Assembly (NCBI RefSeq): GCF_005889725.1
Contig: NZ_VCKX01000001.1
Coordinates: forward strand, 62,001 to 126,000
Source: Nonomuraea zeae
GTDB lineage: Bacteria; Actinomycetota; Actinomycetes; Streptosporangiales; Streptosporangiaceae
Direction of reading: 5' to 3'
Length of the DNA: 64,000 nucleotides
The notes beneath the pieces are model-generated. The model had not been told where the DNA came from and did not search any database. It saw only the letters and a program-made list of their open reading frames with translations. The position numbers were made by a program, and so were the translations under genes. This document shows positions 17,122 to 47,502 of the stretch, one piece after another (the first letter of the stretch is position 1; every line of letters starts with the position of its first letter).

Positions 17122-18617
17122 ATGCGAGAGGAACACGTGCTACCCGAGACACCGTTCGCCTCCCTGAGGCGACACCCGCCCGGCACTCCACTCCTCTTCT
17201 GCCTCCCCTACGCGGGTGGAGACGTCTCCGCCTTCTGGGCGTGGCGGCAGGCGTTCGACGGGGTCTTCGACGTACGGGTGGTGATGCTCCCCGGTCGTGA
17301 AGGCCGGGTTGCTGAACCCGGGGCCCTCTCCCCGGAGCTGATCGCACGCTCCATCGCCGCCCACCACCGCACGCCGTACTCGATCTACGGGCACAGCATG
17401 GGCGGCCGGGTCGCCTTCGAGGTGGTGCGCGAGCTGCGGCGGCTGGGCGTGCGAGCGCCCGAGTGCCTCTACGTCGGCGCCGCGCACCCGCCGGAGCGCC
17501 GGGAGACGCTGGGGCGGTGGACGGGCCTGGGTGACGAGGACCTGATCGAGGAGCTGATCCACCGGCTGGGCGCGCCCGCGGAGTTACGGACGCAGCCCGA
17601 GGTCAAGGCGCTGCTCATCCCCGCTCTGCGGACGGACATGGAATGGCTGCGCCGCTACCGCTTCGCCCGGCAGGAGCCGCTCGACGTCCCCATCGTCGCC
17701 TTCGCCGGCGCTCATGACCGGGAGGTCGCCCATCCCGTCATGCTCGGCTGGGCCCGCCACACCTCCTCGACCTTCCGCCTGCACACGCTCGACGCCGCGC
17801 ACCTCTTCCTCGCCACGCACGGCGATCAGGTGGCGCGGACGATCGCGGCGGGCCCCCAGCAGCGCCCGGCCCCGGACGAGGTGCACGTGTGGCTGGCCGA
17901 CCTTGAGGAACTGCCCGAGCTGTGCGCGGCCGTCGAGGAGCTGTCGCCCGGGGAGGCGGCACGAGCGGCCAGGCTCGGGCAGGAGGACCGCCGGCGCTGG
18001 TTCGTCGGCAAGTCGGTGCTGCGGCGGCGGCTGCTCAGGGAGTACGGGGTCGAGCATGGAGCCGGCGAGCCGCGTACCCGGCCAGGCGGCGGCGAGCCGG
18101 GCACCCGGCCGGGCGGCACCAGGCCGGGCACCGGGACCGAGCTCACCTGCAGCCTCGGCCAGTCGGGCGGGCTCGTGCTGGTCGCGCTGACGGCGGGCCG
18201 GGAGGTGGGCGCCGGCCTCGCGCACCTCCGCCCGCCGGCCGGCGAGCAGGCCCCTTTCGAGGAGGCGCTGGACGAGCGGGAGCGCGATGAGCTGGCCGCC
18301 CTACCCGAGGAGCTGCGGTTGCACAGCGCGCTGCGCATGTGGACGGCGAAGCAGGCGGTGCTGAAGGCGGCCGGTGACGGGATGCGGGCAAATCCGGCGC
18401 TGTTCGGGTTCGCCGGGCAGCGGCCGGGCACGACGTGGACGCCCGAGGTGGCGCCCGAAGCGACGCCCGGGATGGCGCGGCTGGCGGAGTGGCGGGTGAC
18501 GCACCTGCCGCTGGGCCGGGCGGTCGCCGCGATCGCCGTCCGCGCGCCGCGCTTCCTGCTGCGTTTCGAGACGGTACGGCAAGGCCGGCTGGTACGGCAG
18601 GGCGTGGAGGCCGCAGG

Positions 18618-18621
<4 letters not shown>
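17122..18621 (+). CDS. Type II thioesterase fused to a decayed Sfp-type PPTase domain
   Basis: 499 aa. Residues ~15-245 are an alpha/beta-hydrolase type II thioesterase with GHSMGG (Ser92), Asp199 and His227 in DAAHLF; it should clear stalled acyl groups from carrier proteins. Residues ~254-490 align with 4'-phosphopantetheinyl transferases (RWFVGKSVLRRRLLREYG; MWTAKQAVLKAAGDG). The Mg-binding GxDxE has become VGAGLA (Gly365, Ala367) and the third ligand in WxxKE is Gln411, while the SHS-type motif reads SLGQSGG. All three metal ligands are lost, so this half is probably not a PPTase. A 2 x 27-bp repeat forms a Gly/Pro/Arg linker. It overlaps the NRPS by 4 bp. Confidence 0.8.
18064..18117 (+). 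repeat. 2 x 27-bp tandem repeat in the thioesterase-PPTase gene
   Basis: Two adjacent in-frame 27-bp units (18064-18090, 18091-18117) differing at a few bases, each coding a GEPxTRPGG-type nonapeptide; a third, shorter TRPG echo follows. It lies inside the PPTase-like half, in a loop between core motifs. Confidence 0.85.
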
Positions 18622-28683
<10,062 letters not shown>

Positions 28684-28687
<4 letters not shown>

Positions 28688-38953: not shown

Positions 38954-40202
38954 ACAGACCAGCCTGTGGCGCAACGGCAACTTCCTGCGCCTGTGGGCCG
39001 GGCAGAGCCTGTCGCAGTTCGGCTCGGCGATCACCTATTTCGCGATCCCCGTCATCGCGGTCACCGTGCTGCACGCCTCCGAGGAGGAGATGGGCCTCAT
39101 CGGCTTCCTGCTCCGGGTTCCGATGGTGCTCTTCCTGCTCTTCGGCGTGCTGGCCGACCGGGTGCGCAAGCGGCCCATCCTGATCTGGACGGACGTGGCG
39201 CGCTTCGTGCTGCTGATGCTGATCCCCATCGCGTGGTTCGCCGACATGCTCACGCTGGCCTGGATCTACGGCGTCATCTTCGCCATCGGGCTGCTCGGCA
39301 CGCTCTTCCAGACGGCCTACCGCAGCTACTTCCCGTTCCTGGTGCCGCCGGAGAACTTCCTGGAGGGCAACTCCAAGCTGCAGCTGACCGAGTCGACCGC
39401 CCAGACGTTCGGCCCCGGCCTGGCCGCGGCGCTGCTGAAGGTGATCTCCGCGCCCGCGCTGCTGGTCATCGACGCGGTGTCGTACCTGGCCTCCGCGATA
39501 GCGGTGGCGCTGATCAAGCGGCCGGAAGCGCGGCCGGAGCCGGACGACACCACCGCCGGGCAGGTGCACAAGGCGATCTGGCAGGGCATGGGCTGGGTGT
39601 TGCGGCACGAGCTGATCCGGCCGCTGGCCATCTCGTCGGCCGTGTACTCGCTGTTCATCCTGGGCTCGATGAACTCGATCTACGCCCTGTACGTGATCCG
39701 TGACCTGGGCGTGCCCGCGGCCTGGTTCGGCAGCATCCTGGCCGGTGGCGGCGTGGGCTCGATCATCGGGGCGCTGCTGGCCGTCAAGGTGATGCGGCGC
39801 TTCGCGATCGGCGGGGTGCTGCTGTGGTCGATCGTGTACGGCAACCTCGCGCTCTTCCTCATCCCCCTCGCCACCGGGCCGGTCTGGGTCTCGGTGACCA
39901 TGCTGGTCGCCGCGCAGCTGATCAGCGGCGTCACCTCGCAGATCTTCTTCGTCACCAACACCACGCTGGTGCAGACGATCACCCCGCCGCGGTTGCAGGG
40001 CCGCGTGGTGGCCTCGATCTACTCGCTGGGCCTGATCCCCGCCCCGCTGGGCGCTCTGGGCGCGGGCCTGCTGGCCGGCGCCCTGGGGACGCGTACGGCG
40101 CTGTGGGTGGTCGTCGCCATCGGCGCGCTGGTGCCGATGGCGGCGATGGCCTGGTCGCCCCTGGCCAAGCTCAAGGAGATGCCGGCGCCAGAGCCGCAAT
40201 GA
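38934..40202 (+). CDS. MFS exporter (EntS/MFS_3-like)
   Basis: 422 aa from ATG 38934, overlapping the NRPS by 20 bp. About 12 hydrophobic spans are visible, with the A-motif-like GVLADRVRKRP after span 2 (about residue 75). Relatives include siderophore and drug exporters such as EntS. Location at the end of the assembly-line operon points to product export and self-protection. Its 3' end overlaps the converging monooxygenase gene by 32 bp. Confidence 0.9.
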   Translation: MASPTSEQTSLWRNGNFLRLWAGQSLSQFGSAITYFAIPVIAVTVLHASEEEMGLIGFLLRVPMVLFLLFGVLADRVRKRPILIWTDVARFVLLMLIPIAWFADMLTLAWIYGVIFAIGLLGTLFQTAYRSYFPFLVPPENFLEGNSKLQLTESTAQTFGPGLAAALLKVISAPALLVIDAVSYLASAIAVALIKRPEARPEPDDTTAGQVHKAIWQGMGWVLRHELIRPLAISSAVYSLFILGSMNSIYALYVIRDLGVPAAWFGSILAGGGVGSIIGALLAVKVMRRFAIGGVLLWSIVYGNLALFLIPLATGPVWVSVTMLVAAQLISGVTSQIFFVTNTTLVQTITPPRLQGRVVASIYSLGLIPAPLGALGAGLLAGALGTRTALWVVVAIGALVPMAAMAWSPLAKLKEMPAPEPQ

Positions 40203-41190
40203 GCCGTAGCTGGCGGCTGCGCAGCCGCCGGGTGGGCGTGACCAGGCCGACGATCAGCGTGGTCGCGCCCGCCTCCTGGTAGGCCGCCATCCGCTCGCGC
40301 ACCTTGCCCGCGGGGCCGCACATGGTCATCGCGTCCACGAGCGCGTCGGGCAGCATCGTCATGGCCTCGCCCTGCCGCCCGTCCAGGAACGCCTCCTGCA
40401 TGCGGGCGGCCTCCTGCTCGAAGCCGAGCGTGGCGGCCAGGCGGTTGTAGAAGTTGGTACGGCGCGAGCCCATGCCGCCGAGATAGAGGGCGAGCATGGG
40501 CCGCATCATGTCGTAGGCCAGCTCCTGGTCCTCCTCGACCAGCGTGAGCACCATGGGCGCGATGTCGAGGCCGTCGCGGTTCAGGTGCTTGGCCATCTTG
40601 GCCAGGTGGTCGGGCGGGAAGTGGATGGCCAGCCAGCCGTCGGCGAGCTCACCGGCCAGCGCGACGGTCTTGGGTCCCATCGCGGCCAGGTAGACCGGCA
40701 GCCGGTCCTGCACCGGCGAGACGGCCAGCGTCAGCTCCTTGCCCTCGCTGCCGGGCAGGGGCAGCGTCATCGTGGCTCCGTCGTGCCGCACCGGCTCGCC
40801 GCCCAGCGCCTTGCGCACCACCTGGAGGTAGTCCCGAGCGCGGGCCAGCGGCCGGTCGAAGGGCTCGCCGTGCCAGCCCTCGACCACCTGCGGGCCGGAG
40901 AGGCCCACGCCCAGCCGGGCGCGGCCGCCGGAGAGCTGGTCGACGGTGGCCGCCGTCATCGCGGCGACCACGGGTTTGCGTCCCGACATCTGGAGCACGC
41001 CGGTGCCCAGCGCGATGCGCTCGGTCTGGCCCGCGATCCAGGCCAGCAGGCTCGCCGGGTCGGTCCCGTAGGTCTCGGCCGCCCACACGGACGAATAGCC
41101 CAGTGCCTCCGCCTCTCGTACCAGCGCCAGGTGGTCGGCCGGGCCGAGGCCCGCACCGCCCCAGTAGCTCATGCTGTAACCGAGGCGCAT
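40171..41190 (-). CDS. Luciferase-like (LLM class) flavin/F420-dependent oxidoreductase
   Basis: 339 aa with LLM signatures: MRLGYSMSYWG, a WAAETYGTDPAS motif, TVDQLSGGRARLGVGLSGPQ split over residues ~80-100, and a C-terminal GPAGKVRERMAAYQEAGATT. These TIM-barrel enzymes use FMN or F420 for hydroxylation or hydride transfer; F420 use is common in actinomycetes. It is the last gene of the minus-strand NRPS operon (start overlaps the thioesterase by 22 bp), so a tailoring role such as hydroxylation of a carrier-bound amino acid is likely. Its last ten codons lie in the antisense of the MFS 3' end. Confidence 0.88.
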   Translation of the reverse strand: MRLGYSMSYWGGAGLGPADHLALVREAEALGYSSVWAAETYGTDPASLLAWIAGQTERIALGTGVLQMSGRKPVVAAMTAATVDQLSGGRARLGVGLSGPQVVEGWHGEPFDRPLARARDYLQVVRKALGGEPVRHDGATMTLPLPGSEGKELTLAVSPVQDRLPVYLAAMGPKTVALAGELADGWLAIHFPPDHLAKMAKHLNRDGLDIAPMVLTLVEEDQELAYDMMRPMLALYLGGMGSRRTNFYNRLAATLGFEQEAARMQEAFLDGRQGEAMTMLPDALVDAMTMCGPAGKVRERMAAYQEAGATTLIVGLVTPTRRLRSRQLRLIAALAPASP

Positions 41191-41903
41191 CCCATCTCCT
41201 CAGCGATCGTGGCTGCCAGGGCGTCCGGAGTCTCCTCGGCCAGCCAGTGGGTGGAGTCGAGCTCCTTCAGCGCGGGCCTGTGCACGCTCTGCCGCCGCCA
41301 GCCCAGCAGGCCGCCCCTGGTCAGCGAGGCGTCCCGGACGCCGTACAGGACGGAGATGGGCACCGGCAGCGGTGGCCCCGGCCGGTGGTGATAGCCGGCC
41401 AGCAACCCGAAGTCGGCGCGGAGCGCCGGCTCCAGCACCGGCCAGAGCGCCTCCCGATCGGCCAGCTCCGGCGGGACGCCGCCGAGGGCGATCAGCTGCT
41501 CCCAGAACAACCACGACGGCAGCGACGGCAGGCGGCGCAGCAGCAGGGTCACGTCCGGCGCGGCGAACGAGGCCACGATCAGCCGTTCCGGCCGGCCACC
41601 CAGCTCGACCACGCGACGGCAGACGAGAAAGGCCAGCAGCGCCCCGCTGCAGTAGCCGAACAGCGTGTACGGCTCGCGCCACCCGGCGAGGTCGCGCGCC
41701 AGATCGTCGACCAGCCCGTCGAGGTCGGTCCGTGGCTCTTCGGCAAGCCTGGCCTGGCGCCCCGGCAGGTTGACCGCCCACAAGCCCACCTCGGGCGGGA
41801 AATGTCCGGCGAGCTCGCCGAGCGAGGCCGGACCGCCGCCCGCGTGCGGGAAGGCGACCAGCGCCCGCTCCCCCTCCTTGACCTGTGCGAACCACGGCGT
41901 CAT
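41169..41903 (-). CDS. Type II thioesterase with Cys at the nucleophile position
   Basis: 244 aa from the ATG at 41903, overlapping the NRPS stop by 4 bp. Family features: LVAFPHAGGG near the N-terminus, VNLPGRQAR, the elbow FGYCSGAL, VLYGVRDAS and DSTHWLAEE. In the elbow the usual Ser (GHSMG) is Cys85. Asp and His partners are kept. Type II thioesterases remove wrong or stalled acyl groups. This is the second one in the cluster; the other (17122) has normal Ser. The Cys may change its job to an acyltransferase or a slow hydrolase. Confidence 0.85.
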   Translation of the reverse strand: MTPWFAQVKEGERALVAFPHAGGGPASLGELAGHFPPEVGLWAVNLPGRQARLAEEPRTDLDGLVDDLARDLAGWREPYTLFGYCSGALLAFLVCRRVVELGGRPERLIVASFAAPDVTLLLRRLPSLPSWLFWEQLIALGGVPPELADREALWPVLEPALRADFGLLAGYHHRPGPPLPVPISVLYGVRDASLTRGGLLGWRRQSVHRPALKELDSTHWLAEETPDALAATIAEEMGCASVTA

Positions 41904-44900
41904 CGGGCCTCCCCCAGATGCAGGGCCAGTTCGGCCGGTGTCGGATGGTCGAACACGGCCCGTACCGAGACGGCCCGCCCCGCCAGCTCCTCCAGCGGGC
42001 GGATCAGCCGGACGGCCAGCACCGAGTGGCCACCGTTGAGGAAGAAGTTGTCGTGCGGCCCCAGGCCGGGCCGCTTCAGCGCGTCGCGCCACAGCGCCAC
42101 CACCTGCCGGACGAGCCCGTCGCCCGCCTCCCGCGCCGGGGCGCCGTCCTCGTCGGGCACGACCAGCTCGCGATAGGCGATCTTCCCGTTGGCGGTGGTG
42201 GGGAGCCTGCCGGTGATGATGTAGCGGGTGGGAACGGCGTAGTCGGGCAGCCGCGTCCTGGCGAAGCGCCACAGCTCCCCGTCAGCGGTCCGGCCGGTGG
42301 TCCCGAGGTCAGCGGCTCGGCCGGTGACCTCGAGATCAGCGGCCCGGCTGGTGAGCCCGAGGTCAGCGGCTCGGTCGATGAGCTCTAGAAAGGCGACGAG
42401 GCGTCCGTCGCTCTGCGGGTCGCCGTCGAGGATCACCGCGGCCGTCCGTACCGCCTCGTGCTCGTGCAGGGCCGCCTCGACCTCGCCGAGCTCGATGCGG
42501 TGGCCGCGCAGCTTGATCTGCCTGTCGTCACGGCCGAGCAGCTCCAGCGTGCCGTCGTGGCGGATCCGCGCGCGGTCGCCGGTCCGGTAGAACCGGCCGT
42601 ACCGGTCGTGGTGTCCGAAGCGCTCCGCCGTCAGCTCCGGCCGGTTGAGGTAGCCCGCGCTCACCCCCGCACCGGCGACGCACAGCTCGCCCGGCACGCC
42701 CGGCGGCAGCTCGCGGCCCGCGGCGTCGGTGACGAAGATCTGGGTGTTGGCCAGCGGCTCCCCCGCGGGGACCGGATCGAGCGGCGGCTCGCGCAGCTCG
42801 GCGGCGGTGGACCAGATGGTGGTCTCCGTGGGCCCGTAGACGTTGAACAGCCGGCAGCCCAGCTCCAGCAGGTCCCTGGCCAGGGCGGCAGGCATCGGCT
42901 CGCCGCCGCACAGTACCGTGCGGCCGGCCAGCTCCCGCCCGGCTTCCGGCGCGATCAGCCGCCACGCGGTCGGCGTGGCCTGCACCACCTGGACGTCGGC
43001 CGCGGCGATCAGGCCCAGGAGCCTGCCCGGCTGCAACTGGTCCTCGTCCGAGGCCACCACCACGACGCCTCCGGAGGCCAGCGGCAGCAGCAGTTCCAGC
43101 CAGGAGATGTCGAAAGAGGTGGTGGTGGACCACAGAACGCTCGTGGGCGCTCCGAGCCGGTCGGCGAAGTCGAGCACCAGGTTCGTCAGGTTCTCGTGCG
43201 TGACCTGCACGCCCTTGGGCCGTCCGGTGGAGCCGGAGGTGTAAATGACATAGGCGATATTGCCGTACTCGGGTGGCTCCGGTACTCCCAGCGTGCCGGG
43301 CATCGGCGCGACCGGCGTCTCACCCGCCCACGGCGGCATGCCCGCCGCGACGACCAGCCGCGCACCCGAGTCGGCCACCTGGTAGGCCAGGCGCGCCTCC
43401 GGTTGCCGCACGTCCAGCGGCAGGAACGCCGCTCCCGCCTGCCATGTGCCCAGCACCGCCGCCACCAGGTCCGCCGAGCGATCCAGGGCCAGGGCCACGA
43501 CGTCGCCGCGCCGTACCCCTCTCTCGTGCAGCAGGTCGCGGACCGCGGCCGCGCGCCCCAGCAGCTCGTCATAGCTGACCTCGCGCCCGCCCTCGCGCAC
43601 CGCCACGGCCGGGCCGGGCGCGATGCGCTCGACCAGCGTGCCGGGCCAGGTGCGGCGCGTGCCGTTGACCCGGTCGAGCAACGCCCGGTCCGCCGGCGAG
43701 AGCACGTCCCGCACCCCGCCGCGCGCCGCCTGCCGCACCACCGCGCACATCCTGGCCGCGAACGCCGCGATCTCGTCCTCGTCGTGCACCTCGGTGCTGT
43801 GCCCCATCCGGACGGTGAGCCGATCCGGCTCCTGGATGACGTTGCACTGCAGGTCCAGGCGGCTGCGGTCGATGAGGTCCTCGACGTATCCGGGCACCTC
43901 GCCCTGGATGTGCACCTTCTCGTCGCTCCAGGGCCGGTAGTTGAACATGTGCCGGAACAGCGGGACCCGCCAGTCGTCCGTGCCGTGCCCGCGGCGGGTC
44001 AGCACCGCCTCCACCGAGGCGTCGGCGTGCTCGATCCCCTCCGCGAAAGCCTCCTCCACGCGCCTGGCGACCTGCTCGAAGTCGTCGTCCAGCTCGACGT
44101 GGACGCGCAGCGGCAGCGTGCTCACGGCGTAGCCGACGCGCTTGCGCTCCTCGCCCGTCCTGGTGCTGACCGGCATGCCGATCACCAGGTCCGGGCCGGC
44201 GCCGTGCCCGCGCAGCGTCAGCAGGAAGGCGGTGGCCAGCACGATGTTGCCGGTGGTGCGCAGCGTGGCCCGCAGCTCGTCCAGCGCCGCCACCGTCTCG
44301 GCGTCGACCCGCCACGAGCAGGTGTGTCCGGCGAACGTCGGGCGGCCCGGCGAGTGCCTGCTCCCCGGCAGCACCATGGACGCGGGGTCCACGCCGTCGA
44401 GCCGGTCCAGCCAGTAGCCGATCGACTCTTCCGACGGCTCCCCCGGCTCCAGCATCGGCGCGGGCCCCGCCAATTCGGGCGGCAGCGTGCCGTGCCCGGT
44501 CTGGCTGTCGTAGAAGCGGCCCAGCTCCTCCACCAGGACTTGCAGGGAGATGCCGTCGATGACGATGTGGTGGCCGGCCAGGCACACCACGGTCCCGGCG
44601 CCGTCGGGCAGGGTGAAGTGTCCCACCCTGATGAGCAGGTCGCGGCCCAGGTCGAAGGGCTCGTCCAGGAAGGACCGCAGGTCAGCGACCAGCGTCTCCT
44701 CCGTCGTGGCCCGCACCTCGACCTTCAGCTGGGCGTCCTGGGGCGCGACCAGGTGCCTGACGGGCGTCCCGCCGACCACGGGGAACCGCAGGCGTAGCGC
44801 CGGATGCCGCTTGACCAGCCGGTTCACCGCGATCTGCAGCGGCAGCCTGCGCAGCGGTGTCTCGAACCTGAGCGCCACCGCCAGGTTCGACACGCCGCTG

Positions 44901-46012
44901 TCCGGCGCGAGCTGCTCCAGAACCCAGAAGGAGTACGGCACCGCCGGCAGCGGGCGCGGCTCCTCCACGGAGGCGGGCAGCTCCGGCTGCGGCCGCGGGA
45001 TGGGGAGGCGTTGCAGCGGGTGGTCGGGGTCGAGCGTGGCCCAGTCCACCCGGCCGCCGCCGGTCCAGAACCTGGCCACGGCGGCCAGCAGCCCCGCGAG
45101 ATCGCCACCCACCCGGACCTCGGCTCCGGCCGTCCCTTGCGCGAGGCCGCCAAGCTCTTCCCCGCTCGGGAGGTGCGCGAGGCCGCCAAGCGCCTCCCGC
45201 AGCGGAGGGCGCGCGAGGCCGGCGAGCGTCTCCTCCAGCGGGCGGTCACTCGTGAGGAGGGCCGGGTCCGGGGGTTCCGCGCGGATGCCCCAGGCGGCGA
45301 GGGTGGCGGCCAGCCCGTAGGCGGTGGCGAAGGCGGGTGGCGGCTCTACACCTCGCGCTTCCAAAGCTTCTTCGCACACGTCCACCGCCTCGGTGAACAC
45401 GCGCTCCACCCCGTACAGACCCGCCGCCTCGTCGGGGAAGGACAGGCGGACCGGCTCCTGCTCGTAGGCGTGCTCGCGGCCCAGCGCGAGAGCGGCTTCC
45501 GCGGCGCTCCGGCAGACCACCGCGCCTCGCACGGGGTGGTGGACGCGTCCCTGCTGCAGGGTGCCCGTCGCGTCGGCGTAGCGATCCTCCGGCAGTCCGG
45601 CGAAGAACCCGGCCAGGGTACGCCGTACCGACTCGGCCTCCTCCTGCGTGCGGCCGGACCACACGACCACGCGCGGGCGGCCGTCACCCGGGGCGTGCAC
45701 CGGCGGATAGCCCTCCTCGACCTCCAGGTCGTCGGGCCAGATCACCCGGTGCACCAGGTCGCCGTCGAGCAACGCCCGGTCGAGGAGCCGCAGGACCAGG
45801 GTGCCGCGCAGCGTGCCCGGTGGCAGCTCGCCGGCGTCGGTCACGGCCAGCTCGCACTCCCTGGCCAGCAGCGCCGCGCAGGCCTTGCCCACTCCGCCGT
45901 ACAGCCGGACGACCTGCGCCCCTGGATCGTGCCCGGCCTCCTCGGCCGCCCCCACCTCCTGCGGGAAGCGCCCCATCGCGATCACGGCGATGGGCTGTTC
46001 GTGAGGGGTCAC
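41900..46012 (-). CDS. NRPS with fossil KS-AT N-terminus, C-A(Gly)-PCP
   Basis: 1370 aa. Residues ~5-92 recall a ketosynthase (PIAVIAMGRFP at the start; RECELAV...LRLLDRALLDGDLVHRVI), ~113-178 a KS-AT linker, ~188-248 the first part of an acyltransferase (SFPDEAAGLYG ... AYGLAATLAAWGI) and ~304-345 a post-AT linker. No KS Cys and no AT GHSxG exist, so this part cannot catalyse. Then C with HHIVIDG (His481/His482), A with reading D-I-L-Q-L-G-V-I-W, essentially the glycine code, and PCP GGHS (Ser1330). Two tandem repeats (45139-45246; 42281-42388) lie in linkers. ATGA overlap with the upstream carrier protein. Confidence 0.88.
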   Translation of the reverse strand: MTPHEQPIAVIAMGRFPQEVGAAEEAGHDPGAQVVRLYGGVGKACAALLARECELAVTDAGELPPGTLRGTLVLRLLDRALLDGDLVHRVIWPDDLEVEEGYPPVHAPGDGRPRVVVWSGRTQEEAESVRRTLAGFFAGLPEDRYADATGTLQQGRVHHPVRGAVVCRSAAEAALALGREHAYEQEPVRLSFPDEAAGLYGVERVFTEAVDVCEEALEARGVEPPPAFATAYGLAATLAAWGIRAEPPDPALLTSDRPLEETLAGLARPPLREALGGLAHLPSGEELGGLAQGTAGAEVRVGGDLAGLLAAVARFWTGGGRVDWATLDPDHPLQRLPIPRPQPELPASVEEPRPLPAVPYSFWVLEQLAPDSGVSNLAVALRFETPLRRLPLQIAVNRLVKRHPALRLRFPVVGGTPVRHLVAPQDAQLKVEVRATTEETLVADLRSFLDEPFDLGRDLLIRVGHFTLPDGAGTVVCLAGHHIVIDGISLQVLVEELGRFYDSQTGHGTLPPELAGPAPMLEPGEPSEESIGYWLDRLDGVDPASMVLPGSRHSPGRPTFAGHTCSWRVDAETVAALDELRATLRTTGNIVLATAFLLTLRGHGAGPDLVIGMPVSTRTGEERKRVGYAVSTLPLRVHVELDDDFEQVARRVEEAFAEGIEHADASVEAVLTRRGHGTDDWRVPLFRHMFNYRPWSDEKVHIQGEVPGYVEDLIDRSRLDLQCNVIQEPDRLTVRMGHSTEVHDEDEIAAFAARMCAVVRQAARGGVRDVLSPADRALLDRVNGTRRTWPGTLVERIAPGPAVAVREGGREVSYDELLGRAAAVRDLLHERGVRRGDVVALALDRSADLVAAVLGTWQAGAAFLPLDVRQPEARLAYQVADSGARLVVAAGMPPWAGETPVAPMPGTLGVPEPPEYGNIAYVIYTSGSTGRPKGVQVTHENLTNLVLDFADRLGAPTSVLWSTTTSFDISWLELLLPLASGGVVVVASDEDQLQPGRLLGLIAAADVQVVQATPTAWRLIAPEAGRELAGRTVLCGGEPMPAALARDLLELGCRLFNVYGPTETTIWSTAAELREPPLDPVPAGEPLANTQIFVTDAAGRELPPGVPGELCVAGAGVSAGYLNRPELTAERFGHHDRYGRFYRTGDRARIRHDGTLELLGRDDRQIKLRGHRIELGEVEAALHEHEAVRTAAVILDGDPQSDGRLVAFLELIDRAADLGLTSRAADLEVTGRAADLGTTGRTADGELWRFARTRLPDYAVPTRYIITGRLPTTANGKIAYRELVVPDEDGAPAREAGDGLVRQVVALWRDALKRPGLGPHDNFFLNGGHSVLAVRLIRPLEELAGRAVSVRAVFDHPTPAELALHLGEAR
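42281..42388 (-). repeat. 4 x 27-bp tandem repeat near the end of the glycine adenylation domain
   Basis: Four contiguous 27-bp units (42281-42307, 42308-42334, 42335-42361, 42362-42388), each in frame and coding a nonapeptide close to xTxRAADLG. They sit after core A8 in the C-terminal subdomain, in an expected loop. Confidence 0.9.
45139..45246 (-). repeat. 3 x 36-bp tandem repeat in the fossil AT region
   Basis: Three in-frame 36-bp units (45139-45174, 45175-45210, 45211-45246), each beginning GCGCGAGGCC on the + strand and coding LxExLxGLAxxP-like 12-mers. It replaces the part of the AT that would hold the catalytic Ser region. Confidence 0.85.
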
Positions 46013-46314
46013 AGACCGTCCTTACGGATCCTGGCACGCACGTCGCGGCGGCTGCCGCCCAGCGGGCGGCGGCGGGCGCCGTCCTGCCTGGCGGGCGCCT
46101 GGCCCTGCGTGATCAGGTGCGAGAGTGCGCGCAGGTTCGGGTGGGTGAACATCGCGGTGACCGGCAGGCTCAGGCCCAGTGTGCTGGTGAGCTCCTCGTG
46201 CAACGCGACCAGGGCGAGCGAGTCGAGACCGGCTTCGAAGAAGTTGAGATCGGGATCGAGAGCGCGGCCCAGCCTTCGCTCCACGAGAGATGCAACCGCG
46301 TCGGCCTGGGTCAT
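46009..46314 (-). CDS. Free-standing acyl/peptidyl carrier protein
   Basis: 101 aa from the ATG at 46314, supported by AAAGGA seven bases upstream; a longer in-frame start at 46719 would add ~135 residues without carrier-protein character. The attachment site is GLDSL near residue 39 (LNFFEAGLDSLALVALHEEL). The last ~30 residues are basic and low in complexity. Its stop overlaps the NRPS start by 4 bp, so it probably works with the fossil-KS/AT NRPS, perhaps as the donor for its first C domain. No dedicated loading enzyme is adjacent. Confidence 0.88.
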   Translation of the reverse strand: MTQADAVASLVERRLGRALDPDLNFFEAGLDSLALVALHEELTSTLGLSLPVTAMFTHPNLRALSHLITQGQAPARQDGARRRPLGGSRRDVRARIRKDGL

Positions 46315-46767: not shown

Positions 46768-47502
46768 TCAGGCCGTCGCTCCGGCGTCCACCGTGATGGC
46801 CGTCCCGGTGATGGTGCGACCGGCCGGGCCCACCAGGTGGAGGACGGTGGCCGCGATGTCGTCCGGGGTGCCGTAGCGGCCGAGGGCGGTGTAGGAGCGT
46901 TCGGTGTCGGCGTCGGGGCCGTCGGCGGGATTCATCTCGGTGTCGGTGGAGCCGGGGTGGACGAGGTTGGCCGTGATGTCGCGGTGGCCGAGGTCGCGGG
47001 CGAGGCCCTTGGTGAGGCCGATCAGGGCGGACTTGCTCATCGAGTAAAGAGTCCAGCCGGGGTAGGGGACGCGTTCGGCCAGGCTGCTGCCGATGTTCAC
47101 GATCCGCCCGCCGGCCGGCAGGTGGCGGGCGGCGGCCTGCGACGTGAGGAAGGCGGCTCTGGCGTGGATGGCGAGGGTGCGGTCGAGCTCGTCCAGGCTG
47201 ACCTCCTCCAGCGGGCCGAACGGGGCGATCCCGGCGTTGTTCACCAGGATGTCGAGGCGGCCGAAGGTTGAGACGGTGCGGGCGACGGCTGCCTGGAGCG
47301 CCTCGGCGTCGCTTGCCTCGGTGGCCGTCGCCAGGCCGCGGCGGCCGAGCGCCTCGATCTCCTTGACCACGGCTTCCGCCCGGCTCGCCGCTGTCGCGTA
47401 GGTGATCGCCACATCGGCGCCCGCTTCGGCCAGGCGGCGGGCGATGGCCGCGCCGATGCCCCTGCTGCCGCCGGTGACGAGTGCGACCTTGCCATCGAGC
47501 AT
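46768..47502 (-). CDS. SDR-family oxidoreductase
   Basis: 244 aa, classical SDR. Cofactor loop VTGGSRGIGAA (about residue 9), NNAG, the catalytic Ser in NIGSS, YSMSK (Tyr/Lys) and the C-terminal GTAITVDAGA. The family reduces or oxidises hydroxyl/keto groups with NAD(P)H. It is transcribed away from the TetR gene and is most likely that regulator's target through the palindromes at 47517-47557. Substrate unknown; probably not part of the NRPS system. Confidence 0.9.
   Translation of the reverse strand: MLDGKVALVTGGSRGIGAAIARRLAEAGADVAITYATAASRAEAVVKEIEALGRRGLATATEASDAEALQAAVARTVSTFGRLDILVNNAGIAPFGPLEEVSLDELDRTLAIHARAAFLTSQAAARHLPAGGRIVNIGSSLAERVPYPGWTLYSMSKSALIGLTKGLARDLGHRDITANLVHPGSTDTEMNPADGPDADTERSYTALGRYGTPDDIAATVLHLVGPAGRTITGTAITVDAGATA

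Follow-up and report, generated by a model that had tools for sequence, protein, structure and literature searches.

A catalytically dead KS-AT remnant fused to a glycine NRPS module in Nonomuraea zeae: stepwise reduction and a possible role in carrier docking

Non-elongating KS domains (KS0) of trans-AT PKSs retain the complete KS fold without condensing, and they operate inside a PKS. The X-domain descends from a C domain. In glycopeptide NRPSs it recruits P450s (PMC9899208). In SLiM/beta-hairpin pairs, an N-terminal element placed before a C domain reads a short disordered motif at the C-terminus of the carrier (PMC9113145). AT remnants and docking regions of trans-AT systems, X-domains and SLiM-docking pairs are all already known kinds.

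The locus analyzed here lies in a 64,000-nucleotide stretch of the Nonomuraea zeae genome (contig NZ_VCKX01000001.1, positions 62,001 to 126,000; hereafter the window), where a KS-AT remnant precedes the C domain of a glycine NRPS. Unlike KS0, it keeps only ~108 residues of KS. It resembles the X-domain as a domain kept, as we propose, to recruit a partner, but it is derived from KS-AT whereas the X-domain is derived from C and has an oxygenase as partner. Where SLiM/beta-hairpin pairs have a beta-hairpin domain, a KS-AT remnant stands here, and the carrier tail is Arg-rich. The best match in both sequence and fold was OzmQ KS1 (PDB 4oqj) of the oxazolomycin AT-less PKS, over the linker, the AT-like part and the post-AT linker; the OzmQ chain is longer (681-845 residues, with a whole KS deduced from length and name), while in the remnant half of the KS has been deleted and what is left is fused to an NRPS module. 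A half-KS with KS-AT linker and AT start before an NRPS C domain, together with living intermediates, was not found in the open-licence literature searched, as far as its accessible text extends.

The glycine NRPS was encoded by one open frame whose GTG start overlaps the stop codon of the upstream ACP gene (GTGA; Table 1). The C, A and PCP domains of an NRPS elongation module were all matched by Pfam, and the C motif GHHIVIDG and PCP motif NGGHS were present in the translation. We take the A-domain code to be that for glycine. A frameshift or assembly error is unlikely, as relatives of the same length have the same open frame. Elsewhere in the window (17122-18621), a single frame carried a thioesterase together with a 4'-phosphopantetheinyl transferase domain.

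Table 1. Features of the glycine NRPS locus, in window coordinates. dN/dS values are for the Nonomuraea/Microtetraspora set (NG86, crude at high G+C, summed over 21 non-independent pairs).
Feature	Residues	Coordinates	Strand	Evidence and remarks
Gly NRPS (KS-AT remnant + C-A-PCP)	1-1370	41900..46012	-	open frame, 1370 aa, GTG start
KS remnant	1-108	45689..46012	-	alignment, hhalign, model; dN/dS 0.149
KS-AT linker subdomain	109-180	45473..45688	-	Pfam PF22621; dN/dS 0.154
AT remnant (first part of AT only)	181-247	45272..45472	-	alignment; dN/dS 0.308
Loose spacer (former place of AT active-site part)	248-300	45113..45271	-	low pLDDT at 268-295; dN/dS 0.556
Post-AT linker	301-345	44978..45112	-	alignment, PDB phmmer; dN/dS 0.092
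Condensation domain	362-764	43721..44929	-	Pfam PF00668, E 2.1e-49
Adenylation domain	802-1277	42182..43609	-	Pfam PF00501 + PF13193; code DILQLGVIWK
PCP	1303-1366	41915..42106	-	Pfam PF00550
Discrete ACP (~101 aa; Ser motif FFEAGLDS intact; tail SRRDVRARIR)		46009..46314	-	Pfam PF00550, E 4.6e-14 on longer ORF
Discrete thioesterase (start codon inferred)		41169..41903	-	Pfam PF00975, E 9.8e-27
LLM-class F420-dependent oxidoreductase		40171..41190	-	TIGR03559, 341.8 bits (cut-off 335)

Residues 1-345 are, with near certainty, a genuine KS-AT didomain remnant that is catalytically dead; the linker profile, a profile comparison controlled by shuffling, the AlphaFold2 model and homologs of graded length all point to this origin. 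The KS-AT linker profile PF22621 matched residues 116-177 with 28.6 bits (cut-off 27) when a 350-aa piece was scanned alone, and scored 26.6 bits, just below the cut-off, on the whole protein. Pfam profiles for the KS and AT cores gave no match in the scan of the glycine NRPS, and the best NCBIfam match of the 350-aa piece reached only E 0.17. In phmmer searches of the PDB, 4oqj matched residues 109-340 (E 4e-6). For the KS part, an alignment of short forms only was compared with five KS-intact sequences by hhalign (residues 41-92; 93.4%, E 2.5e-7), and the resulting score was reached by none of 200 column shuffles, nor by the reversed alignment. The AlphaFold2 model of residues 1-345 found its best structural matches among KS-AT structures, with blocks of pLDDT 70-95 within residues 1-100.

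The initial annotation had read residues 1-345 as keeping the order KS start, KS end, linker, AT start and post-AT linker with no catalytic residue left. This order was recovered by alignment through intermediates, and the positions of the KS Cys-His-His (nucleophile and both His), the AT Ser (GHSxG) and the AT His were found to be deleted. Its assignment is also borne out by KS/AT profile similarity (the PF22621 match and hhalign), by the predicted fold, which points to KS-AT rather than to another family, and by homologous N-termini in other clusters, which come in graded lengths. The KS remnant contains the N-terminal strand, a helix, part of the nucleophile helix and the following strand, a strand-helix-strand unit and the extreme KS end. 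Overall the remnant is acidic (51 acidic and 30 basic of 345 residues; for the KS piece the counts are 17 and 8).

The C domain retrieved 94 homologs at E 1e-60 from 7989 scored candidates, and the N-terminus retrieved 31 proteins. A KS/AT-derived N-terminus was present in 46 of the 94 C-domain homologs. Short N-termini of 306-433 aa were found in Nonomuraea, Microtetraspora and Planobispora (n = 17), N-termini of 478-592 aa in Streptosporangium and one further case (n = 13), a single one of 437 aa in Bailinhaonella, and full-length N-termini of 671-839 aa in Micromonospora, Actinomadura, Virgisporangium, Spirillospora and Rhizohabitans, among others (n = 14). The frame of P0039 as given begins inside the AT (279 aa), and P0045, from a contig of 3.4 kb, is a fragment. 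The remaining 47 (35-49% identity) were 989-1071 aa long and were judged by this length to lack such an N-terminus; of these, seven, six of them distinct, were inspected in sequence (P0054-P0057, P0082 and P0087). At the genome level, 23 of 341 genomes of the family were matched at E 1e-15, of which G040, G255, G285 and G292 hold KS-intact PKSs, leaving 19. A scan of genome contigs returned only six close relatives. When the N-terminus of P0024 was searched across the class, 14 of 394 genomes were matched at E 1e-100; the five inspected were PKSs, and the genome containing P0024 itself was not found among these 394. One further genus gave 5 weak matches in 297 genomes at 1e-15, and outgroup searches with C-A-PCP (6/394 and 13/54 matches) reached no locus of P0054-P0058.

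Catalytic motifs were then scored in the 14 full-length forms, with three KS-AT comparators in which all motifs are kept (the window PKS at 23315-28687, P0025 and P0026). The TACSS motif was gone in all 14: in five the motif has no Cys, and in nine it is shifted and shortened but has one. The first KS His was kept in five and the second in eight. The Ser of the AT GHSxG motif was lost and the columns of HAFHS were gapped throughout (14/14 each). Because the motifs are already lost in every full-length form, the catalytic lesions are older than the shrinkage. Judged by these motifs, the AT is dead before shrinkage and the KS almost certainly so; some residual KS activity in the full-length forms is conceivable, since some keep KS His residues and nine keep the shifted Cys.

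The C-A-PCP region was used to build a FastTree phylogeny (990 columns, 52 sequences). P0051, whose N-terminus is 718 aa long, was sister to Streptosporangium (478-592) plus Nonomuraea/Planobispora (306-433) with support of 1.0; within this group, Streptosporangium and the short forms were sister groups (1.0), and the short clade was supported at 0.99. The remnant was hence reduced stepwise along this lineage. Deeper nodes were weak, 0.11-0.18 in places. P0053, which has a KS-AT N-terminus of 671 aa, grouped with the N-terminus-free P0054 and P0056 (0.77), so complete loss of the N-terminus, or a separate fusion, is possible there. A separate shortening of a KS-AT N-terminus was observed in P0052 / L073 (G124), outside the Streptosporangium-Nonomuraea lineage.

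Gene order was examined in 18 loci, which represent all of the 19 genomes with a remnant except G007; six pairs of a named locus and a handle were recognised as duplicates. The order ACP, remnant-C-A-PCP, TE, LLM was found in 18/18. The F420-type LLM oxidoreductase and TE (window 40171-41903) are strictly linked to the glycine module. The SDR gene next to the ACP (46768-47502) was rejected as a part because it lacks conservation; among 21 loci, the only match at E 1e-8 besides the window was one of 34% (L078). In G340 (L077 9150-16659) the cluster is broken, the glycine NRPS and PKS being internally deleted and the ACP and TE still recognisable. In both G292 and G255, a PKS that contains KS-AT and has a carrier at its end is followed by a C-A-PCP and a TE of this kind, an arrangement that plausibly pictures the ancestral order.

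The ACP Ser motif was intact in 18/18 ACPs, and the C-terminal tail was SRRDVRARIR or near it in 17/18 (SSRQARSRSR in G310). Mean pairwise identity among the 18 was 0.81 in the tail versus 0.68 in the core, with a linker of 17-57 aa between them. In the window ACP, the tail region is basic (3 acidic, 10 basic residues) and the last 24 residues contain 9 R+K. As read from the sequences, this conserved Arg-rich C-terminal tail on the upstream carrier may be compared with the short carrier motif of SLiM pairs. Carrier tails were then compared in a hand-picked set in which the facing domain was assigned from gene order: R+K in the last 24 residues was 9, 9, 7, 4, 6 and 7 for six carriers facing a KS-intact KS-AT (two of them orthologs; the 4 belongs to L088), 3, 0, 3, 0 and 1 for five facing C domains, and 1 and 1 for two chain-end carriers. 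An Arg-rich tail was thus present on 6/7 inspected carriers facing a KS-intact KS-AT versus 0/5 facing C, the exception being L106, which lies outside the R+K count. In G040 (L081 2635-8345), a discrete ACP with the tail ERRELRARIRQEGR stands directly before a KS-intact KS-AT. The AT of the PKS that follows it keeps GHSLGE, with AAFHH replacing HAFHS. The end of the ACP tail probably overlaps the ribosome-binding site of the NRPS gene, which may add a constraint at the DNA level.

Given how conserved the adjacent ACP and its tail are, we consider the chances slightly better than even that the remnant docks the upstream ACP for the C domain. The acidic remnant and the basic tail fit such docking and offer weak evidence for it. 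A role in docking had been suggested in the initial annotation; what can now be said for it comes from the conserved ACP and its tail. Alternatively, the remnant might recruit or position another partner in trans, either the discrete TE or the F420-type LLM oxidoreductase, in the way that the X-domain recruits oxygenases. These two genes are as strictly linked to the module as the ACP is (18/18 loci), and glycopeptide synthetases provide the X-domain as precedent (PMC9899208), but the independent signature, from a comparison made among carriers, was found for the tailed carrier, and we regard this alternative as unlikely.

Selection on the remnant was estimated from seven sequences (the window, N. 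spiralis, three other named Nonomuraea and two Microtetraspora; Table 1). The KS piece, linker and post-AT linker were 93-95% identical in this clade and had lower dN/dS than the AT remnant and the spacer, with values of 0.234, 0.245 and 0.159 for the C, A and PCP domains. In three Planobispora-type sequences, dN/dS was 0.254 for the KS piece, 0.547 for the linker, 0.732 for the AT remnant, 1.488 for the spacer and 0.244 for the post-AT linker, with 0.244, 0.486 and 0.131 for C, A and PCP. A retained role for the remnant is therefore very probable, supported by the low dN/dS of one clade, the three-sequence Planobispora clade being less clear. The initial annotation had argued for a retained role from the open frame, for which low dN/dS in these three parts is better evidence; its term "fossil" suits the loss of the enzyme but not the conservation of what is left.

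The three tightest parts are those described as packing together in KS-AT: the post-AT linker wraps around the AT and the KS-AT linker and contacts the KS (PMC11907408). Low dN/dS across parts that pack together would also be expected if the remnant were only a shell that helps the C domain to fold or stay soluble, with the linker and post-AT linker kept because the fusion joint packs on them. We hold this to be improbable, as homologous C-A-PCP modules without a remnant (judged by length) exist, and the strict ACP linkage and conserved tail would be left unexplained. Docking of a discrete acyltransferase, as by the AT docking regions of trans-AT synthases, would suit the best PDB match, as OzmQ KS1 (4oqj) comes from an AT-less system, but is highly improbable, since there was no discrete AT among the window ORFs scanned (a subset of all ORFs) and the PKS of the cluster has its own cis AT with GHSIGE and HAFHS. 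Neutral decay by in-frame deletions without counter-selection, with which the fall in N-terminus length along the tree, the loose evolution of the AT remnant and spacer and the higher Planobispora ratios agree, was given very little credence and was rejected for the Nonomuraea/Microtetraspora clade because of the low dN/dS (0.09-0.15, with the identity given above, in KS piece, linker and post-AT linker), the confident half-KS fold of the model also standing against it.

In an ancestor common to this NRPS and the full-length relatives, the KS-AT didomain lost its catalytic residues, and the dead KS-AT was then shortened in steps to the N-terminal half-core of the KS, the KS-AT linker, the AT start and the post-AT linker. 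Under the preferred reading of ACP docking, the upstream ACP would bind the remnant, partly via its Arg-rich C-terminal tail. This would bring the ACP to the C domain, where the ACP-bound chain could be joined directly to Gly-PCP, and the ancestral polyketide extension step or module would be skipped. Whether the retired KS-AT amounts to a new class of N-terminal docking domain, one that reads the Arg-rich ACP tail and passes the chain to C, with relatives preserving intermediate stages of the conversion, we suggest only tentatively, at somewhat less than even chances.

The remnant series shows stepwise how an assembly-line module can lose its chemistry and still keep its interface, and which KS-AT parts (half-KS, KS-AT linker and post-AT linker) are sufficient for retention by selection. 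If the docking role is true, a genome-mining tool that labels such a region a linker or a broken KS-AT would predict the wrong product, and the short forms would be a minimal natural adaptor from a PKS-type ACP to an NRPS C domain, of use in engineering.
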